DNA of 64,000 nucleotides, from the NCBI GenBank assembly GCA_030144965.1, contig JAMPUU010000019.1:1-64000 (forward strand). Reading direction: 5' to 3'. This DNA is from Nitrospira sp. BO4 (lineage in GTDB: Bacteria > Nitrospirota > Nitrospiria > Nitrospirales > Nitrospiraceae). A program made the position numbers and the translations under genes. Below are positions 36,035 through 40,453 of this stretch, piece after piece. The notes under the pieces were generated by a model. The model saw only the letters and a program-made list of their open reading frames with translations. It had not been told where the DNA came from and searched no databases. Numbering within the stretch: the stretch's first letter is position 1; each line of letters opens with the position of its first letter.

Positions 36035-36109
36035 GGGCGATTAGCTCAGTGGTAGAGCGCTTCCTTCACACGGAAGAGGCCACAGGTTCGATACCTGTAT
36101 CGCCCACCA
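36035..36109 (+). tRNA. tRNA-Val (CAC)
   Basis: 75 nt including an encoded CCA. Acceptor GGGCGAT (36035-36041) pairs with ATCGCCC (36099-36105). Anticodon stem CTTCC/GGAAG with loop TTCACAC gives CAC. T-arm ACAGG-TTCGATA-CCTGT is intact. The 3' end is duplicated at 40254-40283. Confidence 0.95.
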
Positions 36110-36110
36110 T
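36081..36110 (+). repeat. Putative att repeat, left copy (tRNA-Val 3' end)
   Basis: 30 bp matching 40254-40283 at 28 positions; mismatches are at the base after CACAG and at the base before ATACC. The last 20 bases are identical. It covers the T-arm, acceptor strand and CCA. Confidence 0.75.
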
Positions 36111-36134
36111 CTTTCCCACGGCACCGTGCGCTCT

Positions 36135-36434
36135 TATCGTCCACGATCAGTCTGGGCGTCATCTCCGCCACTATCCGACCTCCAAAGAACGTACGGAAGC
36201 GTTTCACGAAGACCTGACCTGTCTGGTGGCTTGCCAACTTCACGAGATGCTTTCGCTCGAAACGATCCATTAGTTCGTCGAAAGCTCGGGTCTTTTCTTT
36301 GAGGCGATCCAAATACTGCCCCTCAATCAGCTGAACCTTCACCTTAGTCATGATCGAGTCTGCCAACGCCCGATTCGCCGTCCCAGAAAAATCAAATTCA
36401 TCCACCAGACATTCCCTCGTTTAACGAGCCCCAC
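36135..36434 (-). pseudogene. Tyrosine integrase remnant (N-terminal part, frameshifted)
   Basis: A start GTG at 36434 with AAAGGAGG upstream begins GLVKRGNVWWMN, the arm-binding domain of a tyrosine integrase. Near 36370-36385 the frame shifts by one position, and the protein continues in another frame as TANRALADSIMTKVKVQLIEG... RFERKHLVKLASHQTG... AEMTPRLI, the core-binding domain. The catalytic domain is gone; sequence ends about 25 bp from the tRNA. It cannot be functional. Confidence 0.75.
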
Positions 36435-36812
36435 GGTCTTCCTCCTTTCATTTTTGGCTCGCTGTCGGTGGTCTCCCCGGGGGGGCGGAGTATGGGCGTC
36501 TCGCGTGGCCGCTTCAATGACACGATCCAGATCGCGGTGACTGATCTGGCACTCTCGCGGCATTGATGCTGGTGATTTCCCCTCAAACGATTCCAACCAT
36601 TCCGTCACCTTGTCCCGCTCGAACCGAATCAAGCCATGAATCTTTCGACGGGGGATCTTACCTTGAGCCCAGAGGTTGAGCGTTGAGGGTTTGATGTTGA
36701 GCCAGGCGGATAAGCCAATCGGTTGTGGGTTCTCTCTGACGGGACTATGTCTTGCCTCGGGATTGAGGCATTCAGCTACAACGGTTTGTATTCTGTTGAG
36801 GCACAACACCAC
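36435..36812 (-). pseudogene. Excisionase-like helix-turn-helix remnant
   Basis: The frame carries LSAWLNIKPSTLNLWAQGKIPRRKIHGLIRFERDKVTEWLES-type residues, an AlpA/excisionase HTH with the usual 'aew-L-sti-W-G-IP--ki' layout. Its own stop appears lost, so the frame runs directly into the integrase remnant. It resembles the HTH genes of the intact element at 62.7-63.3 kb in role. Whether a shorter functional protein remains is uncertain. Confidence 0.5.
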
Positions 36813-36973: not shown

Positions 36974-37444
36974 ATGGCGATGATTAAACGAGGCGGCTCT
37001 CTCGTCGTGATGTTGATGCTCATGGCGACGATGCTGTCATGCGGCTCGCGCCCGCCGATCGATGACCGCGTTCCCTCCACGCACTTGGAAAAAGCCCTCG
37101 CCTTGCAGGCACCGTTCGGTGATGCGCGGCACGCTGCACCGGAGATTGTGGCAGCGGGGAAAACTCTCTATGAGGGCAAAGGCACCTGTCATCTCTGTCA
37201 TGGGTTGAGCGGGAAAGGAGATGGCCCGGCCAACCATATGCATGCCAAAAATCCTCCCCGAGATTTCACGGATTGCGCGGTGCAGAGAGATCGCGACGAT
37301 GGCGAGCTCTTCTGGATTATCAAGTACGGTAGTCCAGGAACTGCCATGCAGGCCCTCATTCCGAACCTTCTCAGTGAAGAGGAAGGCTGGAAAGTGATTG
37401 CTTATCTGCGAACCTTCTGCAAGTGGGGAGAGCCACCGGCTTAA
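36974..37444 (+). CDS. Monohaem cytochrome c lipoprotein
   Basis: 156 residues from ATG 36974 with AGGAGGAG upstream; upstream in-frame codons are not used. A lipobox ends at Cys23 (LMATMLSC), predicting a lipid-anchored envelope protein. One c-type haem site, C72-H-L-C75-H76, lies in a cytochrome-c-fold domain with 'GKGDGPA' after it and a C-terminal helix (WKVIAYLRTFC). A Met in the GTAMQAL region is a plausible sixth ligand. It lies 79 bp before the cytochrome-porin gene, suggesting joint function in outer-membrane/periplasmic electron transfer. Confidence 0.88.
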   Translation: MAMIKRGGSLVVMLMLMATMLSCGSRPPIDDRVPSTHLEKALALQAPFGDARHAAPEIVAAGKTLYEGKGTCHLCHGLSGKGDGPANHMHAKNPPRDFTDCAVQRDRDDGELFWIIKYGSPGTAMQALIPNLLSEEEGWKVIAYLRTFCKWGEPPA

Positions 37445-37523: not shown

Positions 37524-38984
37524 ATGAAACACCGTCTAGGGGTGCAAGCCACTCTCCTGCTGGTCGGGCTGATTGCCTTGGTGGGCTATGACTGGAGCCA
37601 ACTCGCCACCGACGCCCAGGCGATTCCCGCGTTTGCCCGGAAGTACGGGTTCTCATGTAATGTCTGTCACGTGCCCGGCTTCCCGAAACTCAACGACACC
37701 GGCAATATCTTCCGCGATCAAGGCTATCAAGTGGATTCTGAACGGGATCTGCCGACGCACGAAAGCATCTCCATGGGGTACATTCCCATTTCCTTCCGCA
37801 CGACGGTGGGCTATCAACGAGCCAGTGTTCGGACCGACGCCACCGGCGTGACCACGGGAGGGTTCGGCTTCACGGGATTGGATATCCTCAGTTTCGGAAC
37901 CCTGACGCGCAATATCGCCTTTGGGGTTGTGTATACGCCGGGATTGGGGAGTGCTGGATTTGGGACTGGCGCCAGTGATAGTGATCTCGAGGCCGCGTTT
38001 GTCCGACTGATGCGGCTAGAACAATTTCTGGGAGTGAAACCTGAAGCCGGCAATTATCTCCTGAACCTGAAGGTGGGTAAATTCGAGCTGGATGTGCCCT
38101 TCAGCGAGAAACGCAGTCCGACCCTGAATACCCCGTTTGTGCTGTATCATTATTTACCCGGCACACCATACACATCGACCATCAGCGGGACCTCCACGAG
38201 TTCCTATCTCAATCCCAACTCGTTTGCGATCGGCGAGAATCAACCTGGTCTTGAGCTGACCGGGATAAAGAAGACGGCTGCTACGGAAGGGTACTTCCGA
38301 TACACCCTCGCCGCTCTCACGACCAATGCCTTTTCCGGGCCGCTCAGCGGATGCAGCGCCGGGACGACGTGTGGTACGGGAGGCCGAAACGTCAACTTCT
38401 ATGGTCATGTCACCCAGTCGTTCGGAGGCTATGGCATCGTGTCTGGACATCGGCTCGGCCTGTTCGGCGCCTATGGCACAGCACCTACGGTCGTCAATGC
38501 GACGTGTCCGACCTGCCAAGCGGTTGCCGGCAGCGGGCAACCCTTCCACCGCGTCGGAGGCGACTTCAGCTTGACCTTCGATGGGCAATGGAACTTGTTC
38601 GGCGCGCTGATGTATGGCAACGATAGTAAGAACTTGTTTACGTCCCAAGGCATCGTCAACGCACAGCGGGCGGCTTGGTATGGGGCATTTGTGCAATTGG
38701 ACTGGTATCCGACGCTGCTTCCCTTCATCCATATGCCAGGGTGGCTGTTGTCGTATCGCTACGACTTGATCCGCAACATCCAGCAAGGGGATCCGACTTT
38801 CGCCAAGGACTATAACAACGTGAACTCTCATACGTTCATGGGGCGGTATTACCTCCATCAGTCCAGCCGAACCGATATTGCGCTGCACATGGAGTACAAC
38901 TTCTACCAGACCGCCAGGGTCGGAACCGGTGGCGGGGATTTACACGGCCAGACGCTGCTGTCCGGAATCGACTTTGCGTTCTAA
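37524..38984 (+). CDS. Fused monohaem cytochrome/outer-membrane beta-barrel, Cyc2-like
   Basis: 486 residues. Signal peptide to about residue 32, then a short cytochrome head: IPAFARKYGFSCNVCH (haem Cys45/Cys48, His49) and a downstream PKLNDTGNIFRDQGY segment. The remaining ~410 residues show alternating amphipathic strands with aromatic girdles and end in Phe (GIDFAF), typical of an outer-membrane barrel. This layout is that of Cyc2-type cytochrome-porins, in which one haem is wrapped in a barrel to pass electrons across the outer membrane. The established family oxidises Fe(II); substrate here is not proven. Four extra Cys appear in loops (GCSAGTTC, ATCPTC). GGAG lies upstream of the ATG. 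Confidence 0.8.
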   Translation: MKHRLGVQATLLLVGLIALVGYDWSQLATDAQAIPAFARKYGFSCNVCHVPGFPKLNDTGNIFRDQGYQVDSERDLPTHESISMGYIPISFRTTVGYQRASVRTDATGVTTGGFGFTGLDILSFGTLTRNIAFGVVYTPGLGSAGFGTGASDSDLEAAFVRLMRLEQFLGVKPEAGNYLLNLKVGKFELDVPFSEKRSPTLNTPFVLYHYLPGTPYTSTISGTSTSSYLNPNSFAIGENQPGLELTGIKKTAATEGYFRYTLAALTTNAFSGPLSGCSAGTTCGTGGRNVNFYGHVTQSFGGYGIVSGHRLGLFGAYGTAPTVVNATCPTCQAVAGSGQPFHRVGGDFSLTFDGQWNLFGALMYGNDSKNLFTSQGIVNAQRAAWYGAFVQLDWYPTLLPFIHMPGWLLSYRYDLIRNIQQGDPTFAKDYNNVNSHTFMGRYYLHQSSRTDIALHMEYNFYQTARVGTGGGDLHGQTLLSGIDFAF

Positions 38985-39930: not shown

Positions 39931-40453
39931 GCCATCTCGCGCAGAAATCATTGCGATAGTCCAATCGCGTAACGACCACAGTACTTAACCAACAAGAACT
40001 GACTACTGAACCATTGATAACCCGAACAATCCTTTAGACAATCATCTTCCGACATTGGTTCTCATAGGACAAACCTAGCCTCCGAAGGGAGCGTGATACC
40101 GGATGAGAACGAGCAACAACGTCGTAACGAACGATTGCTTCTGAGGGGACAGCCCAGTTTTTCCCAACGCAAGGATGGGCAGGGGACAGATTGGAATATA
40201 CATACAGCAGATCGTGTTGTTCTTGATTTCCGTCTGTCCTCTCAAGGCCTACGCACAGATTCTATACCTGTATCGCCCACCATGTTGTCCTGCTGGGTGC
40301 TTACTCTAACTCCTTGGAAATATTGATACAGTAGCTTGGAAGCAACGCCTCGTGTTCTGGACAGAAATGAGGACGTCAGCTACACTTCTGATTGTGGTGA
40401 TGTGTCTGGCTTGAGGATCGCGTGGTGAGGACCAAAACAAGCGAGGTAATGTT
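39931..40453. other. Intergenic with right att repeat
   Basis: No gene is supported. It contains the right tRNA-Val-end repeat at 40254-40283. A GGGGACAG motif occurs twice (about 40146 and 40192) within 50 bp, reminiscent of REP-type elements, but no full palindrome was established. Confidence 0.4.
40254..40283 (+). repeat. Putative att repeat, right copy (tRNA-Val 3' end)
   Basis: 28/30 identical to 36081-36110 and in the same orientation. No tRNA body precedes it, so it is a 3'-end duplication rather than a second tRNA. Confidence 0.75.

Follow-up and report, generated by a model that had tools for sequence, protein, structure and literature searches.

The 64,000-nucleotide stretch analysed here, referred to below as the window (positions 1 to 64,000 of contig JAMPUU010000019.1 of Nitrospira sp. 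BO4, assembly GCA_030144965.1), carries at 37524-38984 a gene for a 486-amino-acid (aa) protein in which a head with a single haem-c site is fused to a predicted beta-barrel. Sequence comparisons support the assignment of this barrel protein to that branch of the Cyc2 kind which includes cytochrome 572, apart from both the neutrophilic iron-oxidiser branch and that of Acidithiobacillus. Its gene is carried, together with genes for a cytochrome c and for a companion protein ending in a SHOCT-type segment, on an island of 4.2 kb that adjoins a tRNA-Val gene. The barrel protein would probably act as an outer-membrane conduit, oxidising dissolved Fe(II) at its single haem and passing the electron inward.

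The kinship with cytochrome 572 of Leptospirillum extends along the whole chain. In BLASTP comparisons the barrel protein matched two UniRef proteins named 'Cytochrome 572', P0270 of L. ferriphilum (124 bits, 28% identity, residues 31-460) and P0348 of L. ferrodiazotrophum (110 bits, 25%, reaching the last residue). Within a set of 62 rows, four proteins of the family f21, assigned to Leptospirillaceae, matched it over almost the full length (E 7e-25 to 2e-28), and the Cluster 1 and Cluster 2 rows matched it only inside its first 146 residues. Profile comparison with hhalign gave an E-value of 2e-51 for the family against cytochrome 572 over the full length, and of 9e-38 over 381 columns for the barrels alone, i.e., with everything through 30 residues past CXXCH removed (E-values are pairwise). 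The cytochrome-572 profile was built from 16 of 120 listed homologs, two of the 16 bearing that name. Barrel-only profiles revealed no clear kinship with Cluster 1 (Gallionellaceae/Zetaproteobacteria, 17 sequences; E 0.04 over 20 columns) or with Cluster 2 (Acidithiobacillus type, 14 sequences; E 0.16 over 11 columns), and on these values the protein was not assigned to Cluster 1 proper or to Cluster 2 proper. Four other AFARK- or AFSR-headed Nitrospira families gave barrel-only E-values of 0.0006 (family B), 0.002, 0.14, and 0.15; these weak scores are less telling, since the profiles hold two to three sequences each.

In the 62-row tree the family groups with the f21 sequences (support 100/99), and Clusters 1 and 2 lie across a 100/98 branch; the tree is midpoint-rooted, has long branches and includes two f21 rows of unusual residue composition. 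The profile result is independent of the tree. The f21 genomes were taken as Leptospirillaceae on the grounds that they carry cytochrome 579 above the curated cut-off. A head search in them gave proteins of about 550 aa, and the label was confirmed by a homolog search with one of these, which returned P0270 and P0348. Four of the seven f21 heads are in the tree, two being incomplete and one left out. The Cluster-1-like references come from the best 80 of 576 relatives, representing 79 loci (Gallionella, Sideroxydans, other Nitrosomonadales, Zetaproteobacteria, Deltaproteobacteria, Nitrospirae, and others); 32 were extracted, of which 17 entered the tree as Cluster 1 and two with Cluster 2, while L149 is incomplete and the rest were omitted for size. 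Cluster 2 is represented by plasmid-borne relatives (Acidithiobacillus, Caballeronia, Methylocystis, Ideonella) and by eight of 120 listed metagenomic relatives. The cluster labels were assigned here from organism and head, independently of published tree files.

Pfam and NCBIfam scans of the 486-aa protein gave no match above cut-off. The protein agrees with the sequence and fold rules for Cyc2 given in PMC8406198. It exceeds the minimum of 365 aa and has one CXXCH; the motif AXPXFAR[Q/K][T/Y] is found as A33-I-P-A-F-A-R-K-Y41, three residues before C45, the '5 amino acids upstream' of the rule being ambiguous in its counting; PXL follows with four residues from H49 to P54, where the '4 amino acids downstream' is likewise ambiguous, cytochrome 572 having three; and the C-terminal OprP/OprO-like porin of 16 strands is seen in the model. 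A preliminary description, made from the sequence of the window, had proposed a Cyc2-type layout with a haem-c site at Cys45, Cys48, and His49 in an AFARK-type head, followed by a long strand region ending in Phe. The layout was borne out and is here refined to the cytochrome-572 branch: the sole CXXCH in the frame is C45-N-V-C48-H49, set within AIPAFARKY (33-41)...CNVCH-VPGF-PKL with P54-K55-L56 on its C-terminal side, and the 16 modelled strands over residues 90-485 run up to a final Phe.

Residues C45, C48, H49, R39, K40, P54, K55, and L56 are invariant in the 61 family members of alignment A1, which comprises the barrel protein, 56 of 120 listed homologs (742 in total) and four genome loci. 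The ratio of non-synonymous to synonymous substitution rates (dN/dS) of the barrel gene is 0.069 against the copy in genome G001 and 0.083 against that in G070 (dS 0.60 and 1.39, respectively), and 0.066 between these two copies; dS is saturated in three of the six pairs, namely all those involving G033. The invariance in 61 members together with the low dN/dS makes the haem motif more than a chance occurrence, and the low dN/dS and the open frame indicate that the gene is intact and under purifying selection. The barrel protein is identical in G091, a second genome of the same species, and a Shine-Dalgarno-like AAGGAG was noted by eye upstream of the ATG at 37524.

An AlphaFold2 model of the 486-aa protein contains a 16-strand barrel at residues 90-485, whose best solved relatives in structure comparison are OprO and OprP, with other porins close behind; OprO/OprP are also the templates named for Cyc2 PV-1 (PMC8406198). 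The barrel is predicted to lie in the outer membrane. The preliminary description had envisaged a 16-strand barrel with an N-terminal haem plug. The barrel was obtained, but the plug position was not: model confidence is below 50 at residues 42-56 and the head is poorly modelled, so that the location of the haem cannot be read from the model. Of the two properties on which that description had staked its Cyc2 assignment, a profile match and a barrel fold, both were found, as a full-length match to the cytochrome 572 profile and as the predicted 16-strand barrel.

Set beside cytochrome 572, the barrel protein shares the head F-[AS]-R-x-Y...C-x-x-CH...P-[KR]-L-x-D-x-G in the aligned sequences, a single haem site, homology over the full-length barrel, including a stretch close to H-x-TQSFGG-x-G, and the 16-strand barrel, present in the published model (PMC10654088) as in the AlphaFold2 model described above. 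The two differ in size (486 aa versus about 540-565 aa in the compared cytochrome 572 sequences), at 25-28% identity, and in the gap from CXXCH to P-[KR]-L (four residues versus three); moreover, the gene described here sits on a tRNA island, flanked by genes for a cytochrome c and for a SHOCT-ended protein, and its host is not known as an acidophile. With Cluster 1 Cyc2 (Mariprofundus, Gallionellaceae) it has in common the AXPXFAR head, CXXCH, PXL, and an OprP/OprO-related 16-strand porin, but the barrels are without clear profile kinship and lie on opposite sides of the 100/98 branch. The Cluster 2 type (Acidithiobacillus and relatives), compared by way of plasmid-borne and metagenomic relatives and not of the tested chromosomal protein, shares the head motif and the fusion layout, whereas its barrels are not clearly akin. 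Its genes are followed by one for a c-type cytochrome in all four plasmid records opened (plasmids of Methylocystis, Caballeronia, Acidithiobacillus, and Ideonella; L023-L026), so that cyc2 is mobile elsewhere too. The MtrAB/MtoAB/PioAB systems are likewise outer-membrane electron conduits with a beta-barrel, but pair a 26-strand porin with a decahaem cytochrome that is a protein of its own (PMC10654088), while the barrel protein has one haem site fused to a predicted 16-strand barrel; an MtrAB/PioAB type was thus ruled out.

That the trio is carried on a 4.2-kb island at tRNA-Val is confirmed. The 3' end of the tRNA gene is repeated directly, with 30 of 33 bases identical, at a spacing of 4173 bases, and no further site in the 64-kb window matches at least 22 of the 33 repeat bases. 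Between the repeats the genes for the cytochrome c, the barrel protein, and the 287-aa companion lie in the same direction (Table 1). The corresponding site was compared in 12 stretches chosen among 39 genomes with matches, 11 of which contain the tRNA. It is empty in eight of the 11 loci, where the downstream gene begins 154-178 bases past the tRNA versus 4345 in the window; in the remaining three the following gene was not found within the stretch (two loci) or the contig ends (one). G001 is among the eight with an empty site; its own barrel gene, with 92% identity, is found on a different contig. Two marks of a tRNA-integrated island, a direct repeat at the far border and an empty site in relatives, are thus present; as to the third, an intact integrase, no integrase domain was found in the two short open reading frames (ORFs) beside the tRNA. 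The placing of the gene in a horizontally acquired island, as the preliminary description had it, is upheld by the repeat, by the empty sites, and by the indications of more than one origin within the genus discussed below. G013 carries, about 740 bases past its tRNA-Val, a segment with 83% identity to the island's recombinase end (L063:4088-4427); it may belong to a different element at this site, and the contig stops at that point. The trio is also present in G070, next to a tRNA-Arg gene (L033:7604-7679), and no bounding repeat of at least 24 bases was found there.

Table 1. Barrel gene, neighbouring genes, and borders of the tRNA-Val island (positions in the window)
Feature	Position	Strand	Basis or remark
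tRNA-Val (cac), integration target	36035..36109	+	ARAGORN; conserved in relatives
Short ORF overlapping the tRNA	36046..36405	-	Recombinase-like remnant by eye, without Pfam match
attL-like direct repeat copy (tRNA 3' end)	36081..36113	+	Sequence match
Short ORF, weak HTH_17 match	36348..36812	-	Below cut-off (23.9 bits, threshold 27); by eye resembles an excisionase/integrase remnant
Class I monohaem cytochrome c (CHLCH)	36974..37444	+	PF00034, E 2.3e-9; predicted exported by eye
Cytochrome-572/Cyc2-type cytochrome-porin	37524..38984	+	486 aa, ATG start, last residue Phe
Signal peptide, residues 1-33	37524..37622	+	By eye, AQA end
Haem-c attachment site CNVCH, residues 45-49	37656..37670	+	Motif in ORF
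Predicted 16-strand barrel, residues 90-485	37791..38978	+	AlphaFold2 model
SHOCT-ended companion protein, 287 aa	39067..39930	+	Lipoprotein-like N terminus by eye
attR-like direct repeat copy	40254..40286	+	30/33 identical to tRNA 3' end

The cytochrome suggested earlier as the neighbour of the barrel gene is indeed there, a class I c-type protein that is likely to be the periplasmic electron acceptor. In 10 of 27 loci a homolog of it is encoded beside the barrel. It was rejected as a cytochrome 579, scoring 70.3 bits on NF033864 against a cut-off of 280; a different gene in the genome of the window reaches 135.4 bits. The SHOCT-ended companion has no match among solved structures, and members of its family occur near the barrel gene in 19 of the 27 loci (e.g., L217:5549-6358). 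In G239 a NapC/NirT-like protein with four haem sites (L228:2303-2836) is encoded directly upstream of a distant relative of the barrel gene. The barrel copy of G075 (L034:8332-9790) is split across two frames near the head and is either broken or misassembled.

Members of the barrel family at E <= 1e-40 are found in eight of 79 genomes of the genus, including the genome of the window and the second one of its species. In a sample of the phylum, 102 of 295 genomes match at E <= 1e-10, many in the head only, and 30 reach E <= 1e-60 by our own count of the rows, among them 13 of the 16 listed genomes of genus g12. Trees of the genus copies comprised six of the eight genomes (the identical G091 and the broken G075 were left out) and placed these copies at three positions, the group of the window with g14_G172 (97/86), G033 with g14_G310 (100/99), and G019 and G073 standing apart. 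A single clade of all six copies was rejected (p of the approximately unbiased test, p-AU, 1.1e-10), as was one of four of them (p 0.0015), these one-clade hypotheses having been tested after the tree had been inspected. On the simplest reading of these sequences the family would have been acquired more than once in the genus, with two of the acquisitions coming from g14-like relatives or being shared with them; ancient duplications followed by many losses may also account for the pattern. As regards the copy in the window, the island itself argues for transfer. At least four other haem-headed porin families exist in the genus and order (L007, L008, L011, L013, and relatives), with barrels not clearly akin to this one, as judged from small profiles. 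G091 has an extra haem-headed porin of another family with the head FSREHG (L168; G091:C1, about 3859638), for which the head search gave no counterpart in the genome of the window.

The genome of the window contains two long molybdopterin oxidoreductases, both below the family cut-off, and the one that was checked (a 489-aa part) matches the solved subunit A of nitrite oxidoreductase with E 4.9e-178. Some close barrel homologs returned by the homolog search are named Nitrospira sp. Given this NxrA-like gene and these names, a nitrite-oxidising member of Nitrospira is the most likely host.

Cytochrome 572 is reported to lie in the outer membrane and, at low pH, to be reduced by Fe(II) both readily and to completion (PMC8126622), and it is by analogy with it that Fe(II) oxidation is proposed for the barrel protein. 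The haem would be attached at C45, C48, and H49, placed where Fe2+ arrives through the barrel, and would take one electron from it; the electron would then pass to the co-encoded cytochrome c and from there enter the host respiratory chain. The companion might assist assembly of the conduit in the envelope, which is a guess. The cassette was probably acquired from a relative. Two points weigh against full equivalence with cytochrome 572: H455, invariant in the family (61 of 61), is absent from the 16 cytochrome-572-type rows, and Keffer et al. rate function as most uncertain in Cluster 3 Cyc2 (PMC8406198). More tentatively, and with a fair measure of doubt, the trio may be seen as a portable electron-uptake cassette that spreads among nitrite-oxidising Nitrospira via tRNA islands, with Fe(II) as a second donor and the companion as the third part of the conduit.

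The same protein in the same place could let electrons flow outward, reducing Fe(III) outside the cell, or some other acceptor, under oxygen shortage. FeGenie's category for Cluster 3 Cyc2 is 'probable iron oxidation and possible iron reduction', and its presence in some iron reducers, e.g., Geobacter, is noted there (PMC7005843). However, cytochrome 572, the tested protein of the branch, accepts electrons from Fe(II) (PMC8126622), and a single haem in a small porin is regarded as suited to dissolved Fe2+ (PMC8406198, PMC9040806), which leaves outward flow unlikely. Slightly less probable again is uptake from a donor other than Fe(II), such as Mn(II) or reduced organic shuttles. We know of no biochemical precedent for this in the cytochrome-572 branch, which counts against it, although Cyc2 homologs have been suggested to serve Mn(II) oxidation in 'Ca. 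Manganitrophaceae', which belong to this phylum too, and have been noted in Nitrospirales as well (PMC9040806).

There is also a small chance that the barrel protein senses iron or redox state, or detoxifies, in the envelope and is no growth conduit. In G019 and G073 (L037 and L036, respectively) the barrel gene and the cytochrome c gene adjoin long proteins that by eye resemble chemotaxis (methyl-accepting) receptors, more chemotaxis-like genes lying close by in L036; besides, the host already has nitrite as a likely donor, and the island is without an oxidase gene. Against sensing stand the c-type cytochrome gene beside the barrel gene in the 10 of 27 loci mentioned above and the combination of barrel and haem head, which is the layout of tested oxidases. 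That the gene is a functionless, decaying passenger of a dead island is very improbable: recombinase-like remnants are all that is left of the mobility module, but the frame is open, ribosome-binding sites are seen by eye, dN/dS is 0.07-0.08, and the protein is identical in G091. Fe(II) oxidation by a cytochrome-572-type porin thus remains the preferred role.

Cyc2-like proteins in Nitrospira are not a new idea, since homologs are already in print. Iron-oxidation potential via cyc2 or sulfocyanin homologs was reported for candidate taxa including 'Ca. Nitrospira defluvii' (PMC7005843), a similarity network ties Leptospirillum Cyc572 to homologs of Nitrospira and Acidobacteria (PMC10654088), and Cyc2 homologs were noted in Nitrospirales, as cited above. 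A literature search in which subscription journals were thinly covered found no report of the trio of cytochrome, barrel, and SHOCT-ended protein, of its companion, of the tRNA island or of repeated transfer.

Nitrospira rank among the main nitrite oxidisers in soils and water works. Should the barrel protein oxidise Fe(II), the nitrogen and iron cycles would be joined within one cell, and a cassette of about 3 kb could spread the trait. The conserved SHOCT-ended companion is named as a candidate part of the conduit, and cytochrome 572, which forms a long and isolated branch among the tested oxidases of the Cyc2 kind, gains a large family of relatives outside Leptospirillum.
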